From the NCBI GenBank assembly GCA_020426595.1, contig JAGQPS010000017.1, positions 1 to 39,463 of the forward strand: a DNA stretch of 39,463 bases. The letters are read 5' to 3'. Within the stretch, counting starts at the first letter, position 1. Each line of letters opens with the position of its first letter. The position numbers and the translations under genes are program-made. Shown in pieces: positions 19,650 through 34,777 of the stretch. The DNA is from Planctomycetales bacterium (lineage in GTDB: Bacteria; Planctomycetota; Planctomycetia; Pirellulales; Pirellulaceae). The notes under the pieces were generated by a model. The model saw only the letters and a list, made by a program, of their open reading frames with translations. It searched no databases and had not been told where the DNA came from.

Positions 19650-19958
19650 GATTTGGTAGTTAAAATGCGATTTATCAAGGCATACGTGGCTTGCGTCCGT
19701 GGCGATTGGCGACCCTCTTTGCACCCATTGAGTTTGGGTTCCTGACTGCGTGGCGAGCCACCATTCAGACCGAGCGAGCCTGCTCGCGGCCGCTGGAAAG
19801 GCCAAAATCAGGGGCTCGCACGACTCCCGTCTCTTTGTTTTGGGCAATCGCCGGAGGAAGGGTCGAATCGTGGCCTGACGCTCCTCCAGTTGAATCGCTA
19901 CTCCGTATGCGATTGCCTTGCGATCAAAGTTGTCGCCCTCACCGCTAGGAAGAATTCG

Positions 19959-21761
19959 TTGAACACTCTTTCATCACTTTGGAATTGGCTGCGGTGGGGA
20001 TCGGCCAAAGTCACCGTCTCGCAACCTTCCACGAAGACGGCGTTCGATGAGCTAATCGAGCGATTGGGAAGTCCAACCGAGGGCGAACCATTGCGGGTGG
20101 CTGGGATCTTGGACAATTCCACGCTGGTAGGACTTTCTCACGATGTCGCATTAACACCGCTGCACCCCTCCTCATGGCAATCCGCTTTGATTGATGGCTC
20201 GTTCGATCTTTTGTTGATTGAGTCGGGTGAGCGAGGTAACGCGAATACTTGGAAACACTGCTTCTCGCGTCCGTCGGATGGACATCGCGCCGAACTCAGT
20301 TCGGTGCTCGCGAAGTGTCGTGAATTGAACATTCCGACCGTTTTTTGGAATACCGAGGTTCCGGCGATCAACGAGGACTATCTCGCAATTGGCCAGGAAT
20401 TCGACTTCGTTTTTGCCGCCGATCAAACATCGCTGGAAAAGTACCGGCGTGAGCTGGGACAAGAGCGAGTCGGCTTTTTGCCCCTCGCCATCCAACCCAA
20501 GATTCATCAACCCACCGTTGAATCGCAGAGAATCAACCGAATCGGATTTATTGGCAGCTGGAACTCACCCTCGTCGCCGGAACGACAGAACCGCCTTCGT
20601 CAGGTATTCGGGGCTGTTGCCGAATCTTTGGACCTCACGATTTTCGATACCGATCTGAATCGCGGTGGCGATAAGTCCCAGTTTCCGGCCGAGTATACGT
20701 CGAAGAGTTCCGCGAAACTCACCCCGAAGGACCGCGTCGCGAATGTCTATCAGCGGTTTGCGGCTGTCATTGACGTGGACTCGGCGAGCGGCTCCTCCGC
20801 CCCCTTCTCCCGAACGATGGTGGAAGCCGCGGCGTGTGGCATTCCGATCATTGGCACGCACTCCGCGGCCCTGGAAGAGGTCTTCCCGGGGACGTTAGCG
20901 CCGGCGAACGATGCCGACGAATTGAAGCAGTTGATTGAGTCCATTGGCAGCGGTGATTGGGAAGTGCTGAAGCGAGTCGTTCGTGGCGTGCGCGCCGCCC
21001 ACGAGAACCACACTTACCAACATCGCCTTCGTACCATCGCGGAGCGAGTTGGCTTAAGCCCACCCGCCGTTTCGGAGATGCCGCTCACTGCGATCTGTGT
21101 TTCAATGCGTCCCCATCTCGTGGAGCATGTCGCCAGCCAGCTTTTGCGGCAAAACCGGCGTCCCGATGAAGTCATCTATGTCTGCCATTCGCCCGACTTC
21201 AATGAACAGGAAATCCGAGAGGCTTTCCGGGATGAAATCCCGCTCCAGGTTTTTCGCTTGCCGGATGAAGGCTTCCTCGGGGATGGGCTCAACTTGGCGG
21301 TCGAACATGCGACGGGTCGATACCTAGCCAAGATTGACGATGACGATTTTTATGGGCCCAACTACTTCCGAGATGCCCTATTGGCCATGAAGTACTCCGG
21401 CGCGGCGATGGTCGGCAAGGAAACGTTCTTTGCCTTCGTCGAGTCCACGAACCAACTCGTGGTGCGATTCCCTAACAAGCACTATCGCTATCGGACCCAC
21501 ATCGCCGGACCGACATTTGTCTGGGACGGCAATCAGACTCGAGACATTCCATTTGTTCAGCGACGGCAAGGAACCGATTCGGCCTTTCAGAAACAACTTG
21601 TTGAAATGGGCCTGAAGATCTTTGCGACGGACCCCTTCAACTTCCTGATGATCCGACATGCCGATCAACATCAGCACACTTGGAGAGTCAACGACGAAGA
21701 GTTTCTTTCGAAGACCGAGCCGGTCAGCAAAGGTCTCGATCTCGAGTGGGTCGAAGTCTAA
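19959..21761 (+). CDS. Two-domain glycosyltransferase: CgeB/GT1-like plus GT2-like
   Basis: The preferred start is the TTG at 19959, preceded by AGGAAG at 6 bp (600 residues); the frame is open back to a TTG at 19890 without a ribosome site. Residues about 45-370 resemble the CgeB/GT1 family: FDLLLIESGER, NIPTVFWNTEVPAI, FDFVFAADQTSLEKYRRELG, INRIGFIGSWN, and RTMVEAAACGIPIIGTHSAALEEVFPG with the usual acceptor-side Glu region. Residues about 380-590 are GT-A-like: TAICVSMRPHLVEHVASQLLRQNRRPDEVIYV, then AKIDDDDFYGPNYF with the DxD-type metal site at 460-463. Both transferase types are thus in one chain, suggesting two consecutive sugar additions. It is cytoplasmic with no membrane segment and is first in the glycan cluster. 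Confidence 0.85.
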   Translation: MNTLSSLWNWLRWGSAKVTVSQPSTKTAFDELIERLGSPTEGEPLRVAGILDNSTLVGLSHDVALTPLHPSSWQSALIDGSFDLLLIESGERGNANTWKHCFSRPSDGHRAELSSVLAKCRELNIPTVFWNTEVPAINEDYLAIGQEFDFVFAADQTSLEKYRRELGQERVGFLPLAIQPKIHQPTVESQRINRIGFIGSWNSPSSPERQNRLRQVFGAVAESLDLTIFDTDLNRGGDKSQFPAEYTSKSSAKLTPKDRVANVYQRFAAVIDVDSASGSSAPFSRTMVEAAACGIPIIGTHSAALEEVFPGTLAPANDADELKQLIESIGSGDWEVLKRVVRGVRAAHENHTYQHRLRTIAERVGLSPPAVSEMPLTAICVSMRPHLVEHVASQLLRQNRRPDEVIYVCHSPDFNEQEIREAFRDEIPLQVFRLPDEGFLGDGLNLAVEHATGRYLAKIDDDDFYGPNYFRDALLAMKYSGAAMVGKETFFAFVESTNQLVVRFPNKHYRYRTHIAGPTFVWDGNQTRDIPFVQRRQGTDSAFQKQLVEMGLKIFATDPFNFLMIRHADQHQHTWRVNDEEFLSKTEPVSKGLDLEWVEV

Positions 21762-22269: not shown

Positions 22270-24960
22270 CTAGATCATATCGGCGATCGAACGCGTCTTG
22301 GCTCCCAACCAGTAATCAGCCATCGCGCCCACATCCAAAGCGACTCCACCGGCATGGCGCGCCTCGCCACAGAAGATTTTTCCAATGGAACCCCCGGCGA
22401 CTAGGACCAGTGAGCCAGGACTCACTTGGGTTCGAATTTGGTCCAGCACCTGATCATAGACGAATGGCAATGGCTGATCCGAGGACTCAAACAGCTCGCC
22501 ACCCGCGGTGCGGGCGTGAGTTGGAATGGGAATCGTGATGAGGGGTTGGTCGGCCAAGCGTTCTCGCAACGCTCCTTGAATCAATTCTTCCTTGATGCTC
22601 GAGACCACGACGACTCGCCGTGCGGCCGGGATGAGCTGCTCGATGCCTTCAAGATCGAAACAGAGTTGATGAATCCGCTCCTCGGTAAACCTTCGCTCCT
22701 CTCCCGGCAGCTCGAAGGCACCATGCAGCACCGTTACCAGCTCGCGTCTCGAGGGTTCTTCATAGAGCGACTTGCGCGATCCCATGATGTCCCGGGCAAT
22801 CCGGAAAATCGAAGGCACTCCTAGAACATCGGCTTCTCGAATCGCGTCAAACATTTCGCTGGCGATCCGATGCCGCAATTCACTTGGCAAGGTCGTTCCC
22901 CACCATGCCATCTCTCGAAACCTCACTCGTTCCGCCGAGATTTCTCCGGTCCATGCATAGGACTCGCCATCACCAAGACGGATCAACGAGTAAGGGGTAC
23001 GGTCAGCGAGCTTTTGGCGAATCGAGTCCATCAACGACTGTCTCAGCGAGGCATTGCCTCGGCAGTCCATCCAACCGCACTGAGAGGGACGTCGCTCAAA
23101 ACAATCCTTGATGTCTCTTGTGATCTCATCACTGACTTCGGGTGGCACGACGCGACAAAGTCGATCGATCGCATCACCATGAGTCATGGCTGGCAGCACG
23201 CCATTTAGAAAGTCGAGCTCGTAGATCTTCACTTCTTCAATAGGTGTGATACCGAGACGCTCCCGCCAACTTCGGTAATCCGCCTGTCTTCGGGTCACCA
23301 GTCGCAGGATCCCGATCTTACAGATCGGCGGTAGTTTCCCTGCCAACTCACCCAGGTCGTCAAGTATCAGTTCGACGAGTTCAATATCACCGGACTTCAC
23401 CGCCAGCTTGATTAAACAGGAGTAGTCCATGCTGGAGAGCCTGATTTCGCTCTTTCTCAACAACAAGTACCCATGTTTGACCTCGCTCGAATCGACCGCC
23501 TCGCCCCGGTAGTCCGTAACGTGAATCCAAACCAGGGCCTGGGCGCGTTCATCGTTGATATCCGTGAACTTCTCGACCAGGGCAGGGAAGGCCTCATCCC
23601 GATTACGCATCATTCGATCGGTGATGAAACCAACATCCTCCACGCGCATGACCCCATGGTCCACCAAACGATTGAGTGTGAGTACCGGGTCGTGCGAGTT
23701 GGTCAGCAGCGATTCGCAATCCGATCGGCCTAGAACGGTAAAGGATGGGTTGACCGGTTCAGTCCAGTTCGCGAGCGATGGATGAGTGTTGTTGAGCTGT
23801 TTCTTTACTTTGCGCAGCGGGTACTTGCGACTCGTGTAGGGCGATATCAGCGCGGCTCCAAGTCGTGGCAGATAGCCCTTACGCACTTGCGTAACCGCCT
23901 CCATGTGATCGATATGGTTGGCGATCAACCGAAATTGCTCCTGGGCGATTTCCAAGCGTTGGTTCGCGTCGGTCAACTGGTTTTCCAAACGCACCTTTAC
24001 CCTTTGCAGCCATCGCTCGCTCTTCTTCTGACTTCGGCTCCGCGCTTTCCACTCGTCGAGCGACTCGGATAGCTCTCGCAGAGCCAGTTCGGTTTCGTGG
24101 AGTCGAAGTTTGAGCTCCTCCCGATCCGCCTCCCATTTCAGCCGGGCCGCTTCGAAAGCACCAAGAACTTGAACAAGCAGTTCAGCGACGCTGCCGTTGA
24201 CATCGAACGACGAAGCGTCTTCTCCAAGCTCTGTTTTGAGAGTGGACTCGAGTCGTGAAATCGCGGAGCGGATTGTGTCGGGCACCACCGCGGACATCAT
24301 CAAACCCATCCCTGGACTGGAAGCCCCAGGTCCCGCAGGCGGGCACGAGGCGAACTTTGGTTCAGGCAGATCCACGTTGCACCCTTGGGAGTGATCGACA
24401 GGAACTTGTGTGTGCTTCTTCATCTCTTGGAGCGCGGCGTCGAGATCCCCTTGAGCCCCAATCACATCCCAGAACCGGCGAAATCCCGAATCGGGCCTCG
24501 ACATATCGATCTCGACGACTTGGAGCCCTCTGACGGATACACCATCAAAAGTTGGCTCACCGCAAGCTTGCGATATCGGCTGGCTCGCGACCGAATCCGA
24601 TGGCGCCGCGCAACTTCCGCTCTCAGGCTCGCCCGCACACTCGGACAAAGTGCGGAGGTCCCCGTCTCGACCACTCCCCATCACGTCACGGCCTCCGTTG
24701 AGCTGCACCACGACCATTTGGGAGGGGTCACTGACAGCGCACTCTTCCAGACTCGAAAGGGAATGACTTGAAACCTCGATGTGGAATCCCGGTAGGGGGT
24801 GGGCATCTTCTCGAAACCCAGGACCGTCCTCGGCTTGGCCCGTCGAGAAATTGGTGATGTGACGGCATGCGCTGGTAAAGGTCTCCGATCCGCAAGGATC
24901 GGCACCCATCACGAAAACCCATTTGATCGGGCGGTCGTTAAGAGCAGCGTCTAGGGTCAA
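22270..24960 (-). CDS. Sulfotransferase-like / coiled-coil / GT-D fold glycosyltransferase fusion
   Basis: The TTG start at 24960 has GGGGA 8 bp upstream; the product has 896 residues. Residues ~10-190 resemble a sulfotransferase-family P-loop domain with a degraded nucleotide loop: WVFVMGADPCGSETFTSACRHITNFSTG where GxxRSGT would be expected, PGFHIEVSSHSLSS, and a C-terminal FRRFWDVIGAQGDLDAALQEM. Residues ~255-360 are charged and heptad-like (coiled coil). A helical middle of unknown type follows. Residues ~650-885 match the GT-D family (DUF1792): SLIRLGDGESYAW with D664 and E666 of the DGE motif, ADVLGVPS, and LVLVAGGSIGKIFCGEARHAGGVALDVGAMADYWLG. GT-D enzymes transfer sugars from nucleotide sugars without a classical DxD. 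The gene is reversed relative to the rest of the cluster. The N-terminal assignment is less sure than the C-terminal one. Confidence 0.82.
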   Translation of the reverse strand: MTLDAALNDRPIKWVFVMGADPCGSETFTSACRHITNFSTGQAEDGPGFREDAHPLPGFHIEVSSHSLSSLEECAVSDPSQMVVVQLNGGRDVMGSGRDGDLRTLSECAGEPESGSCAAPSDSVASQPISQACGEPTFDGVSVRGLQVVEIDMSRPDSGFRRFWDVIGAQGDLDAALQEMKKHTQVPVDHSQGCNVDLPEPKFASCPPAGPGASSPGMGLMMSAVVPDTIRSAISRLESTLKTELGEDASSFDVNGSVAELLVQVLGAFEAARLKWEADREELKLRLHETELALRELSESLDEWKARSRSQKKSERWLQRVKVRLENQLTDANQRLEIAQEQFRLIANHIDHMEAVTQVRKGYLPRLGAALISPYTSRKYPLRKVKKQLNNTHPSLANWTEPVNPSFTVLGRSDCESLLTNSHDPVLTLNRLVDHGVMRVEDVGFITDRMMRNRDEAFPALVEKFTDINDERAQALVWIHVTDYRGEAVDSSEVKHGYLLLRKSEIRLSSMDYSCLIKLAVKSGDIELVELILDDLGELAGKLPPICKIGILRLVTRRQADYRSWRERLGITPIEEVKIYELDFLNGVLPAMTHGDAIDRLCRVVPPEVSDEITRDIKDCFERRPSQCGWMDCRGNASLRQSLMDSIRQKLADRTPYSLIRLGDGESYAWTGEISAERVRFREMAWWGTTLPSELRHRIASEMFDAIREADVLGVPSIFRIARDIMGSRKSLYEEPSRRELVTVLHGAFELPGEERRFTEERIHQLCFDLEGIEQLIPAARRVVVVSSIKEELIQGALRERLADQPLITIPIPTHARTAGGELFESSDQPLPFVYDQVLDQIRTQVSPGSLVLVAGGSIGKIFCGEARHAGGVALDVGAMADYWLGAKTRSIADMI

Positions 24961-25959
24961 CTCAGCAATCCCCTTACGGTTCCCGACTCAAGGTGGGTGG
25001 CTGCGAATCGGGCGTGCCATCCCGTTAGGAGGAGACCTCCGCGATCCACCTTCGGTAGCGGTCTAGCATCGCTTCGCTACCTCTCTGACTCTAATTGGTT
25101 GGCCGTTCGGCATCCTCATTCTCCTCGGATCGACTCGCGTTTTCTCGTATTTTCTAGTGAGACGGGTGTGGCGAAGTCAGGAAAATGGAATCTGACAGCA
25201 GATCGGTATTGCGTTTCGTTCGGTGGGGCCGCGCCTTCAAAAGGGGGATGAGGGACACGGGTAAGAGCGTGGTTCTGGGCCAGCAGTTCCACGGTCCGGA
25301 GAATCTCGCCTCAGCCCATCGGAAGCCGGTAGAATCCACACCAGTCGTACTCGCCATGCAGGACGGCGAGACACGCCCAATCACGCGCCGTGGCCCGCCA
25401 TGGCCTGCGTTGACAGGTATTTCAGGCGGATCATACTCGGGGTTGCTTGGCCCAACACAAATTGCTCAACGCCTTGAGTGGGTACGAAGTTGGGTCGTCC
25501 GTGCGGATGCCGAACTTCGGGAGTGACCCTGATTTCGTAGCGTAGGTGCTGCTGAAACGCGGACATCGACCAGCCAGATTTGGAGCCCCACTCGGTTGCA
25601 AGAGATGGGTGCGCGATGGCGGTCTCATCCGACTATCCCACTCGACTTGTTCAAGCCCAGAGCGACCCAGTTTGTGTCGTGAGCCCCTAATGAATTGGAA
25701 CACTCCATTTGCTGCTAGACGACCTCAGGATGCCGCTTCTCCCAGCCTCTGGAAGATGTTCTTGGTGAGTAAGATCCTCGCGATCCCCACGGCGCTTGCA
25801 TTTCCACACGATTCTCACGCGCGGTAAACGGGGGCGTGGCGACTGAGATTGTTCCGCGGTCGGGCAAGACCTTTTACTGCTTCGCGTCAGTCGCGAATGC
25901 GTGGCACCTTAAGCAAGGCTGAGCAGCCAGGATCTAGCCCAGCAAGGACACGATGGATC
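24961..25959. other. 1-kb gene-free stretch with possible decayed coding sequence
   Basis: No complete gene is visible in this stretch between the divergent GT-D and hydrolase genes. On the minus strand one frame reads for about 80 codons up to a TGA at 25381 (residues such as AFQQHLRYEIRVTPEVRHPHGRPNF in two parts). A shifted frame then continues with ACLAVLHGEYDWCGFYRLPMG, a stop, and VELLAQNHALTRVPHPPF. This protein-like pattern broken by a shift and a stop suggests a pseudogene, but I could not name a family. A hairpin GGTAGCG/CGCTACC is at 25054-25081. The promoters of both flanking genes should lie here but were not identified. Confidence 0.4.
25176..25196. repeat. Possible extragenic palindrome (GTCAG...CTGAC type)
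   Basis: GTCAG-GAAAATGGAAT-CTGAC is a 5-bp inverted repeat with the phrase AAAATGG followed by TCTGACA. Similar phrases occur in dispersed extragenic palindromes of many bacteria. Only one copy was seen in this window, so its status as a genomic repeat is inferred from memory. Confidence 0.25.
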
Positions 25960-26970
25960 ATGAATGAAAGTCCGAAGTCAGCGACATTGGTCGAGTTTTT
26001 GACTCAATTGCACGAGCACCGAGTGGTTCCCGGTTCGGTCTATCGCTTGAAAATGCCTGAATTCGAGCGGAATGGTGTTGCGGCTTTGCCCATCAAGGTC
26101 GGACATGTGCCCACGGCTGACACTTCGGCCACCAAGCTGATCGTGCAGTTCCATGGAGCGATCGACCAAACACAACGCGCGGTGCCTTTCTTTCAAGAAT
26201 TACTCCCCACGCGACTCGAATCGCAAGACACACTAAGCCTCTCGATTGCCGATGAATCGCTCGAGCGATCAACGGAAATCAAGTCGGGCTGGTATCAAGG
26301 GAGTGCGAGATTTGATCTGTGCGGTGCGATCACCGAGCTCGTATCTCGAGTCAGCGCTCAACTCCGCTCCCAACGTCTGGTGTTTGTTGGCAGTTCGGTG
26401 GGAGCCCATGCGGCCTTGGTGCAGTCTTATCGATTCGAGAATAGCTGCTGCGTCGCCAACAATCCGATTGCCAACATCGGGCACTACTTTGAAAGTCACC
26501 GCAATGCATTCCTGCGGAACTGTTGGCCAGGGGTTGAGAAAGTCGAGGACATTGGAGGCTCGTTCATCAACGACTGTGGCGATCTTTATCGGCAGGGCCA
26601 CCCAAACCAGCTCATCGTCGTTCAGAACCCAACCGATCACCATTTTCATCGGCAAGCCATTCATTTCGTACAGCAGTTGCCGTGGAAAGGCAATTCGCTG
26701 ATGGTCTCGGAGTTTGACCCCGAGGTAATTGGCCACCGATTCAATGGCCTTACCTTGCGTCGGTGGTCACTGGCCGCATTGTCTGCGGATGGCGGCACTT
26801 GTTTGGACATCGCCCGACGATTCCATGAACTCAAGAACGAGGCGCCGGTTGAGGAAAATGTCAGGTCTTCCGAGACGACTATTTCCAAGAGAAACGAGCC
26901 ATCAGAACGGTGGAATCAAGATTCCGCGATCGCGTCCCGCCTAGCCGCAATGGCCCAACAGCAAGGCTAA
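25960..26970 (+). CDS. Alpha/beta-hydrolase-like protein of the capsule/glycan type
   Basis: The ATG at 25960 (AAGGA 10 bp upstream) gives 336 residues. After a polar N-terminus the order is hydrolase-like: TKLIVQFHGAID (a strand with HG as oxyanion motif), then RLVFVGSSVGAHAALVQS, a GxSxG-type elbow with Ser146, NNPIANIGHYF, QLIVVQNPTDHHFHRQAIHFVQ for a possible Asp/His, and EVIGHRFNG. The layout recalls the XcbB/CpsF-like capsule proteins, though this is not certain. No signal peptide is present, so it acts in the cytoplasm. The GSCFA gene starts 6 bp after its stop, so the two are almost certainly one operon. A likely role is modification (acyl transfer or removal) of the glycan or a glycan precursor. 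The substrate cannot be read from sequence. Confidence 0.7.
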   Translation: MNESPKSATLVEFLTQLHEHRVVPGSVYRLKMPEFERNGVAALPIKVGHVPTADTSATKLIVQFHGAIDQTQRAVPFFQELLPTRLESQDTLSLSIADESLERSTEIKSGWYQGSARFDLCGAITELVSRVSAQLRSQRLVFVGSSVGAHAALVQSYRFENSCCVANNPIANIGHYFESHRNAFLRNCWPGVEKVEDIGGSFINDCGDLYRQGHPNQLIVVQNPTDHHFHRQAIHFVQQLPWKGNSLMVSEFDPEVIGHRFNGLTLRRWSLAALSADGGTCLDIARRFHELKNEAPVEENVRSSETTISKRNEPSERWNQDSAIASRLAAMAQQQG

Positions 26971-31808: not shown

Positions 31809-34484
31809 TCAGTCGGGACGGCTGAGAAGCTCGATCGCCGCTCGTCGCAGCGACTCCGTGGCGAGCAATGAACCGCGATCGTACGACACCGTTCCGGCGT
31901 CCTCCTCGCTTTGTTGCTCGACGTCTCCTTCCAGAGACACATAGTGAGTGACCCACTCTCGCATTTGTTGTTGACTCCAGCCCTTGCGACGGCGCACCAA
32001 CTCCAAGTACTCGATCAGTTGCTGCAGTTCACGGTATGCCTTGAGCCGCAACGAATGTCGAATCTCGATCTCGTCGGCATTGGACTGATCGAAGATGAAA
32101 ATCCCAAGTTGATCCGCGGAGCGTAACGCGTCGCCGGTCTTATCGACGGTTTGCCAAGGCACCAATCCCGTGGCTCCATGCGACCAGGCCTCGAGCCCCC
32201 AAGCGATCAGTTGGCGGTTGCTGGTCGCGACTGGATTGGAAGTGCCGTAGACCCAAACGTCGATCCGATCGTGAGCCATGCGATCGGTCACAAGACGTCG
32301 ATAGTCGGCGAACGCTCGTGACGAAACGACCCACAAGTCGTCGCGCCCCGCGAGTTGTCCCCGACAAAACTCGGGGCGCGAGATATCGATGCGGTAACGC
32401 GTTCGCGGCGACTCGGAACCCGCGTCCGCCAGTCCTTGATCGGTCAACTCACCGTAGTACCGCAGCGCTCGATAGTCCCAGTACGAGGCGGGTTCGTCCA
32501 GAATCCACGGAGCCTTGGTCGGTTCGTTGAGCGACCCCTTGTTGTTGAAATAGACCTGAAACCCAGCCGCATCCCAGCCCGATCGATGAGCGGTTCGCGC
32601 CCAGTCGGTCATGATCGCTCGGTACGTGTCGGCGTAAACGGGGGCGTCATGGAACGCTTGATAGGCGTCGGGATCGCCGTTGAAGAACTCACGACAATTC
32701 AGCGGCCAACTCTCATGAAATGTGAGATAGAAACCGGGAGCCGCGATGGGACCGCGATGACCATCCGCGAAACACGAGCCATCGAGGAACGGTCCAAAGG
32801 CGACGATGAAGTCGTCCCAATAGGCGCCCGTCGCTCCCGGCTCGATCGCATCGTACCGACGATTGTCCATGCGACGCCCCGAAGGCAGACGCATGTCGAG
32901 CGAACTCTTCCGCGCGCCGGGAGCCGCGGTGTGATGGGAGTAGTGCAACACATTGCAATGAACTCGGTGATCGTACGCGACTCGCTGCAAGGCGTAGTAG
33001 TCCTCGACGCGATCGGGAAGTCCGTAACTGTTCATCTCGCACAAGAACGATGCCTCGCGCGGCAAGGCGAAGGGCAACACCTCCAACTCGATTTCCAGTT
33101 CACGCCCGTCCGACAGCCGAACATTCCCCGTACGCGCTCCAGCCGCCGAGTCAAATGGAACGTAGATGTCGACCACCACCGCTTGGTCGCGTTCGGCGTC
33201 GAGCGGCAGGGGAGAAGGCAGCGGGAGCAGCGGATCTGGAATTCGACTTCCACCATCGACGACATACAAGGCTTGCCACAGATCGACGCGCGGCGACCAA
33301 TCTCGAAAACCGACTTCAAGAGTCGTGGCCCTCGTTCCTCGAACCAATAGCTGGAATCCGACCACCTCACCCGCGGCGGCCTGAAGTCGGACCGTGCGTC
33401 CATCAAAGATCGAATTGTGTCGCCGGTACGACTCCGGTAGATCGCCGACCGCCTTCCCATTCCAGTCGTACTTATCGGTCAACGGAATCGCACTTAACCC
33501 GGACAGGGCGTCGAGGATCGGTCGAGGCTCGATTGGCTCGGGAAACTCCAATCCCGTCCCCACGAACAACTCGCCCGTGATCGTCGCCGCTTCACTCCGA
33601 CGCCCGATTCGGTCGAGCGTGACGATCGAGACGTCATGAGGTCCAGCGCGCACGACCGATGGAGGCAAGTCTCGAAGTTCGACCGCCTGGGTGCTTCCTG
33701 GCTCGACCAACGGAATGTTATGACGACCCACCGAGACACCATCGACCTGAACCTCGTAAGCGAATCCGTCGGACGGAGCCTCGAACCATACTCGGGCGCT
33801 CGTGCCATCGATCGCCTCGAGCCTCGGTCGGGTAGCGGCCTCGGCTGCTGGCTCGGAGTCCGAATCCAGTTCAACCATCAACACGGGCGCTCGGCCCGAC
33901 TGCTCTCGGGAGAAGATCGTCGGATTGCGACCATAGTCGGCGTCGTGTTCATGAATCGCGAGCCCATGCGCGACGCCGATCGCCATGGCATGCACCATGT
34001 CGGGAGGCACCTCCCAGTGATACGCGCCCTCGATGATCGGGGATGTCGCCGCGTGAACGAGCGTGCCGGCGTTTCCTCCACACACCGCCGGAAAACGGGC
34101 TCCCGCATAACCCCAGCCCGCGACACCTTCGATGCCCGCGGTGAGACCGTTGGACGACATCTCGTCCCAGGGAGTCGCTATGGTTGAAATCGTGACACCA
34201 CTTATCGTCTCCGCGGCCGCGTGACACACGAGTTCCGCACGGCGGACTCGCCGGCCTCGAATCGCCGTTAGGTCAAAGCTCATCGCCACCAAATGCTGAT
34301 TGCCTTTGATGCGAATTCGCCCTTGGTTCCCTGCGTTGAGTGTCCACTCGCCGTCGAGCAAGACGATCGAGTTATCTTGAGTCGCCGGCAGAGCGACCGT
34401 TTGAGCCAACGCCGTCGTGGCCAAGCTCGCCAGGCACGTCAGACCAACTCCCAACCAGCATCCCCATCGGCCAACAAGATTCAT
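31809..34484 (-). CDS. Secreted multi-domain protein, GH123/DUF4091-like glycosidase candidate
   Basis: The ATG at 34484 has AAGGA upstream and is followed by a signal peptide (MNLVGRWGCWLGVGLTCLASLATTALAQ); 891 residues. The N-terminal ~190 residues (DNSIVLLDGEWTLNAGNQGRIRIKG, LVAMSFDLTAIRGRRVRRAELVCHA) resemble a DNRLRE-type beta-sandwich. A fibronectin-like stretch follows (ARVWFEAPSDGFAYEVQVDG). The C-terminal half looks like a TIM-barrel glycoside hydrolase of the DUF4091/GH123 kind: FLCEMNSYGLP, VHCNVLHYSH, WILDEPASYWDYRALRYYGEL with an Asp-Glu pair, DVWVYGTSN, and WGLEAWSHGATGLVPWQ. It probably cleaves an external or surface glycan. The catalytic residues and the exact family need a profile search. 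It is unlinked to its neighbours (convergent with GT2, divergent from the protease). Confidence 0.72.
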   Translation of the reverse strand: MNLVGRWGCWLGVGLTCLASLATTALAQTVALPATQDNSIVLLDGEWTLNAGNQGRIRIKGNQHLVAMSFDLTAIRGRRVRRAELVCHAAAETISGVTISTIATPWDEMSSNGLTAGIEGVAGWGYAGARFPAVCGGNAGTLVHAATSPIIEGAYHWEVPPDMVHAMAIGVAHGLAIHEHDADYGRNPTIFSREQSGRAPVLMVELDSDSEPAAEAATRPRLEAIDGTSARVWFEAPSDGFAYEVQVDGVSVGRHNIPLVEPGSTQAVELRDLPPSVVRAGPHDVSIVTLDRIGRRSEAATITGELFVGTGLEFPEPIEPRPILDALSGLSAIPLTDKYDWNGKAVGDLPESYRRHNSIFDGRTVRLQAAAGEVVGFQLLVRGTRATTLEVGFRDWSPRVDLWQALYVVDGGSRIPDPLLPLPSPLPLDAERDQAVVVDIYVPFDSAAGARTGNVRLSDGRELEIELEVLPFALPREASFLCEMNSYGLPDRVEDYYALQRVAYDHRVHCNVLHYSHHTAAPGARKSSLDMRLPSGRRMDNRRYDAIEPGATGAYWDDFIVAFGPFLDGSCFADGHRGPIAAPGFYLTFHESWPLNCREFFNGDPDAYQAFHDAPVYADTYRAIMTDWARTAHRSGWDAAGFQVYFNNKGSLNEPTKAPWILDEPASYWDYRALRYYGELTDQGLADAGSESPRTRYRIDISRPEFCRGQLAGRDDLWVVSSRAFADYRRLVTDRMAHDRIDVWVYGTSNPVATSNRQLIAWGLEAWSHGATGLVPWQTVDKTGDALRSADQLGIFIFDQSNADEIEIRHSLRLKAYRELQQLIEYLELVRRRKGWSQQQMREWVTHYVSLEGDVEQQSEEDAGTVSYDRGSLLATESLRRAAIELLSRPD

Positions 34485-34777
34485 CGACGTCCTTCCCTTG
34501 AGGAACGAACCTCTCACCTGGAGTGTCGGATTGCTTGATCCGACTTCGCGCGACTCAAACTCGTGCACTCACGTTACCGTCGGTCACGAGTAGTGACTAC
34601 CTTGGGACCCACGCCGGACCGAAACCCGCACGAGAGGGTGAGTCCAAGAGCCGTTGCAAGGGATCCGGCTGCCCGTTGTCTTGGCTATGATGGTGAACCA
34701 CTCGGGGTGACTCCCGTGATCGACTCGCGGAACGCTCGGCTCCGCAAGTGGTATCGTTCCTCGCGAAAGAAATGCCC
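34485..34777. other. Divergent promoter region without genes
   Basis: This 293-bp gap lies between the glycosidase-like and metalloprotease genes. TGGCTATGAT at about 34682-34691 resembles an extended -10 for the rightward gene, but no -35 box at normal spacing was found. Nothing else stands out. Confidence 0.3.

Follow-up and report, generated by a model that had tools for sequence, protein, structure and literature searches.

A GT-D-type glycosyltransferase gene with a degenerate sulfotransferase-like N-terminal part on a planctomycete contig

In DUF1792, the domain of streptococcal dGT1 that represents the GT-D family PF08759 (structures 4pfx and 4phr), a DxE motif binds Mn2+ (PMC6493773). 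The GT-E class, to which TagA and TarA belong, is ion-independent and has no DxE; the motif is missing from TagA (PMC6493773). Streptococcal dGT1 is described as a multidomain protein with a helical interaction domain (PMC5063993). Here, we describe a gene whose product has a GT-D-like domain at one end and a sulfotransferase-like (ST-like) part at the other, and compare it with these and other systems.

The window, by which we mean the whole 39,463-nt stretch of DNA analysed, is the entire contig C88 of a 5.96-Mb assembly in 867 contigs (Planctomycetales bacterium, GCA_020426595.1). It encodes an ECF sigma factor next to a kinase-TPR protein, together with DUF1501, PSD1/DUF1553 and DUF1559 proteins, a gene content that we take to be planctomycete-like. 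The reading frame of interest lies exactly where the preliminary description of this DNA had placed it, and its features are collected in Table 1. Two further genes of the window gave no Pfam match: 31809–34568 (minus strand, 919 aa) and 25849–26970 (plus strand, 373 aa), the second containing a VFVGSSVGAHAAL stretch that resembles the nucleophile elbow of alpha/beta-hydrolases.

Table 1. Positions in the window of the gene, its parts and one neighbouring gene
Feature	Position	Strand	Basis
DUF3880-like/GT1_2 + GT2 protein, neighbour of the gene	19890..21761	+	Homologue adjoins GT-D genes in L005 (E 2e-44)
Entire gene, TTG start, 896 aa (alternative GTG start at 24987 in the same frame, 905 aa)	22270..24960	-	Open frame; ribosome-binding-like AAGGGG 9 nt upstream of TTG
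GT-D domain, residues 630-896	22273..23073	-	PF22882 E 6.8e-13; DUF1792 4pfx Z 10.3, 192 aligned, rmsd 3.7
D-G-E (DxE) motif	22963..22971	-	Sequence; RLGDGE region conserved in relatives
Alpha-solenoid-like helical domain, residues about 410-620	23101..23733	-	Shared with C95 paralogue; model helices
Coiled-coil-like helix, residues 255-364, no proline	23869..24198	-	Weak SMC-type matches
Linker, residues 184-222	24295..24411	-	ATG codons (residues 218, 221, 222) that could act as internal starts
Second ST-like block, residues 147-183, with a strand and the FRRFWDVIGAQGDLDAALQEM helices	24412..24522	-	Profile 23.6 bits; pLDDT 90+ over 151-180
Residues 65-146, site of lost DNRL and HLxRD...S, S/G/E/P-rich, 92-133 predicted disordered	24523..24768	-	pLDDT <50 at 92-133
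First ST-like block, residues 14-64, with a strand, the degenerate P-loop (ADPCGS), a helix and the HIE strand	24769..24921	-	Profile 29.5 bits

The assignment of the C-terminus to GT-D, which the preliminary description had made from its RLGDGE signature, was borne out. Residues 641–793 matched the GT-D-like family PF22882 at 48.9 bits, above the curated cut-off of 27, and RLGDGE (residues 661–666) falls inside this match and supplies an intact DxE. The family named at the time for comparison, PF08759, gave no match in the reading frame up to E 1. NCBIfam NF040628 (GT-D_rel) scored 33.8 bits, under its threshold of 75 bits, and PDB sequence searches with either half of the protein returned nothing useful. 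Across five aligned GT-D sequences the R, G and D of the motif were invariant, as were many further columns. A model of residues 400–896 (pLDDT 63, from a four-sequence alignment) resembled DUF1792 in fold (Table 1) and scored as high against TagA (Z 11.3). An assignment to GT-E, with TagA and TarA, is disfavoured by the DxE, which TagA lacks. GT-D is therefore the better assignment for the C-terminal half, which, judged from its sequence, would be expected to transfer a sugar.

The same genome encodes a 709-aa paralogue on contig C95, which is 39% identical to the window protein over residues 410–896 and has a coiled coil, the helical region and GT-D, with no ST part. The unit of helical region and GT-D was found again in three tandem genes of the Deltaproteobacteria MAG HKST-UBA01 (L005) and in proteins of ∼1030 aa on Sinorhizobium/Ensifer plasmids (L041, L042). 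The plasmid genes (L041:3955–7053 and L042:3877–6969, both on the plus strand) have GT-D at the end of the product, the long N-terminal part of which matched no Pfam family up to E 0.1. The tandem genes (L005:5569–10549, plus strand) adjoin a gene for a DUF3880-like glycosyltransferase. Among 392 sampled genomes of the window's phylum no GT-D relative was found beyond its own genome; IMG/VR yielded none, no phage record contained the full window protein, and the genome G001 does not have the gene. The search within the phylum of L005 covered five genomes.

Between the two ends, the coiled coil that had been proposed as a connection is plausible at residues 255–364 (Table 1). The earlier list of domains did not include the solenoid-like helical domain at about residues 410–620. 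In the model, its helices aligned with TPR/PPR-type repeats at Z 8–10, which may reflect a common arrangement only. Standing ahead of the catalytic domain, solenoid and coiled coil would probably serve in oligomerisation and in binding an acceptor or a partner.

Genes for GSCFA, UDP-GlcNAc 2-epimerase and a GT2 protein also lie near the gene. That a homologue of the DUF3880-like neighbour stands beside GT-D genes in L005 as well supports a role in common that concerns glycans. From this gene context, we infer a glycan role for the window protein, which may act as a metal-dependent GT-D glycosyltransferase in surface-glycan synthesis.

We then consider the N-terminal part. Residues 11–207 were matched in two genomes of the same taxonomic family, once by a standalone ST-like protein of 232 aa (L007) and once by an ST-like domain in front of a GT2-GT4 protein (L008). 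Further members came from planctomycete genomes, 18 IMG/VR contigs (L021–L038) and two plasmids (L039, L040). The plasmid-borne members, from Pseudanabaena and Streptomonospora, are both annotated as hypothetical protein; Pfam matches to the family are weak. Members at L055:1492–2124 and L056:1417–2124 (plus strand) carry GRTAS in place of GRCGS in the P-loop and form a separate subgroup.

When 26 intact relatives, without the window, were used to build a profile, it matched the reading frame with a full-sequence E of 7e-15, in residues 14–64 and 147–183 only, and the 232-aa relative used as a query found the window independently (E 8.5e-14). The HIE block and FWDVIGAQGDLDAALQ, from which a degenerate sulfotransferase-like domain had been proposed, fall inside these two stretches, in agreement with that proposal. 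Intact members carry TGRCGS, HE[ST], HIEVDNRL and HLxRD...S. Pfam matches to Sulfotransfer_3 were seen in 6 of the 14 rows of the family alignment (best 1.3e-5) and to Sulfotransfer_4 likewise in 6 of 14 (best 3.5e-5); the window row itself matched neither.

A model of residues 1–206 gave a P-loop alpha/beta fold with modest confidence (pLDDT 68, pTM 0.63). Its top Foldseek match was SULT1C1 (E 0.016). VIA-align placed it at Z ∼7 to Teg14, StaL, TPST2 and 3-OST over 131–144 residues, tied with P-loop kinases, for which about 110 residues aligned. The structural comparison that the preliminary description had suggested thus recovered the P-loop fold, with sulfotransferases among the top matches, but did not set these apart from kinases. 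The ST assignment rests on sequence homology and not on the fold match; by that homology, residues 14–183 are sulfotransferase-like by descent, a real but degenerate member of the family.

The degeneration shows at the positions that are invariant in the 26 relatives. Of these, F16, A31, H60 and E62 are retained in the window protein, and G21, R22, H42, E43, R66, L67, R89 and S97 have changed. In the phosphosulfate loop the family TGRCGS has become ADPCGS, with D and P replacing G21 and R22, which agrees with the earlier statement that the N-terminus is without the PAPS-binding RSGT loop. The R and S that bind the 3′-phosphate (HLxRD...S) align with positions 89 and 97, both of which are G in the window; a shifted R is present at position 91 (QLNGGRD), but it cannot replace both lost residues. 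The loss is uneven along the domain. Mean identity to the family, for the window versus an intact reference, was 0.43 versus 0.55 in residues 9–40, 0.19 versus 0.56 in 41–75, 0.10 versus 0.37 in 76–145 and 0.29 versus 0.34 in 146–190. When residues 64–145 were compared with the family, 256 of 500 shuffles of the same stretch scored at least as well. A compensated frameshift in this middle portion was considered and rejected, as the other reading frames match the family profile nowhere.

Because invariant motif residues are lost and residues 64–145 score no better than shuffles, PAPS binding by this part of the protein is, to judge from these comparisons, very unlikely. The domain might instead still be an enzyme with shifted residues, or have another P-loop function in binding a small molecule. 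C23, G24, H60 and E62 are conserved, and migrated residues are described as possible in pseudoenzymes (PMC10211241). The genome also encodes an APS kinase and other sulfotransferases, so that the cell can probably make PAPS. Nevertheless, neither phosphate-binding site survives, the DNRL segment is missing and the middle is indistinguishable from shuffled sequence; we regard continued activity as improbable. No intact member of the small ST-like family was found among the contigs of this genome that were searched.

A scan of all collected loci with both profiles found ST and GT-D together only in the window reading frame, and no second such protein among them. Elsewhere, the ST-like proteins are standalone or joined to GT2, GT4 or CgeB-like domains, and the GT-D relatives have no ST part. 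The preliminary description had named separate N- and C-terminal proteins in relatives as a sign of chance fusion or misassembly, and the parts do occur there as separate proteins; within the sample, the fusion is thus private to this genome. Two unrelated genes could have been joined wrongly in so fragmented an assembly, and no second genome has the fusion. However, the join is in frame and free of stops, GC3 is almost equal on its two sides (0.62 and 0.63), and the ST part is already degenerate, unlike an intact gene misplaced by assembly. A misassembly is therefore hardly probable. On the sequences sampled, the pairing is a lineage-specific fusion, found in one genome, whose ST module is apparently non-catalytic.

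Fusions with an intact ST-like domain were observed at other loci. The domain stands in front of GT2-GT4 at L061:2607–5723 (1039 aa) and L008:5370–8600 (1076 aa), and in front of GT2 at L015:2736–4916 (727 aa), all on the minus strand; for L061 and L015, the GT2-GT4 and GT2 assignments, respectively, come from sequence likeness to L008 and not from profile scans of these two proteins. At L021, it is joined to a CgeB-like GT1_2 protein. The L061, L008 and L015 proteins are candidate bifunctional enzymes of sugar and sulfate transfer. Given these fusions, both modules appear to join glycosyltransferase partners repeatedly, the window pairing being unique so far. In the open-access papers searched, we found nothing on sulfotransferase-glycosyltransferase fusions or on this domain combination.

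How the ST-like part came to persist is the point on which two readings compete. Under the first, the gene for a small ST-like P-loop protein would have been joined in frame to the front of the GT-D gene in this lineage. The joined domain would then have been deprived of its PAPS- and acceptor-holding residues; its central segment would have been replaced by, or have decayed to, a disordered stretch, with the flanking strands and helices kept. With those residues lost and the central segment gone, the part could not transfer sulfate, and the glycosyltransferase would most likely have retained it for structure or for docking. A substrate-binding role, as suggested in the preliminary description, would be conjectural. 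Several observations support a retained module: the frame runs uninterrupted for more than 200 codons, free of frameshifts and with length changes in-frame only, and the structural flanks are kept far better than the middle. When neutral substitution was simulated to 67% ancestral identity, with substitutions only, the frame remained open in 4% of runs.

Codon usage counts against such a module. The training blocks from this genome averaged 0.217 in codon log-odds per codon, with a minimum of 0.037. Residues 1–190 fell under all of them at 0.033, and residues 61–140 stood at −0.03; by the codon statistics of the same genome, residues 191–222 also scored negative. The fusion is, moreover, known from one genome, which has a paralogue without the ST part. 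A codon signal below all training blocks is as expected for a decaying relic, and makes this a serious rival: an upstream small ST-like gene would have lost its stop and its activity and now be a tolerated extension or an untranslated pseudogene, with the protein starting near residues 218–222. The ATG codons in the linker could start a protein resembling the C95 paralogue, and the parts lie apart in relatives. The long open frame and its rarity in the neutral simulations, the better conservation of the flanks and the AAGGGG ahead of the TTG speak against it. We consider such a relic a substantial possibility. The best explanation, to which we give somewhat under an even chance, is a GT-D enzyme with a retained, non-catalytic ST-like module that would have a structural or docking role.

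A more specific version, that a pseudo-sulfotransferase domain was recruited as a regulatory or acceptor-reading module of the GT-D enzyme, itself non-catalytic, from a little-known family of small ST-like proteins with repeated fusions to glycosyltransferases, appears doubtful to us. The domain combination, without a match in the papers searched, leads to this small family. The intact fusions to GT2 and GT4 enzymes would make bifunctional sugar and sulfate transfer testable, and the window copy would be the same module after loss of its chemistry.

The locus can be set against five groups of known proteins. The two plasmid-encoded members of the small ST-like family (WP_015146198.1 and WP_131102953.1) are homologous to residues 14–183; in that family, the catalytic motifs are intact, and its proteins are mostly standalone and never occur with GT-D in our set. 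Teg14, StaL, TPST2 and 3-OST share the P-loop alpha/beta fold of the window model, at the Z scores that kinases equal, but their PAPS-binding residues are absent from the window. The GT-D proteins of L041, L042 and L005 have the same helical region and GT-D, with 34–36% identity over the C-terminal third; their N-terminal part is another domain or is absent, and none has an ST-like domain. TagA/TarA match the window model in fold (Z 11) and differ in the DxE, present in the window and missing from TagA (PMC6493773). DUF1792/dGT1 shares both the GT-D-like fold and the DxE. It differs in family, as the window matches PF22882 and not PF08759, and in company: the partner in dGT1 is a GT-A domain, whereas those in the window protein are an apparently dead ST-like module, a coiled coil and a solenoid.
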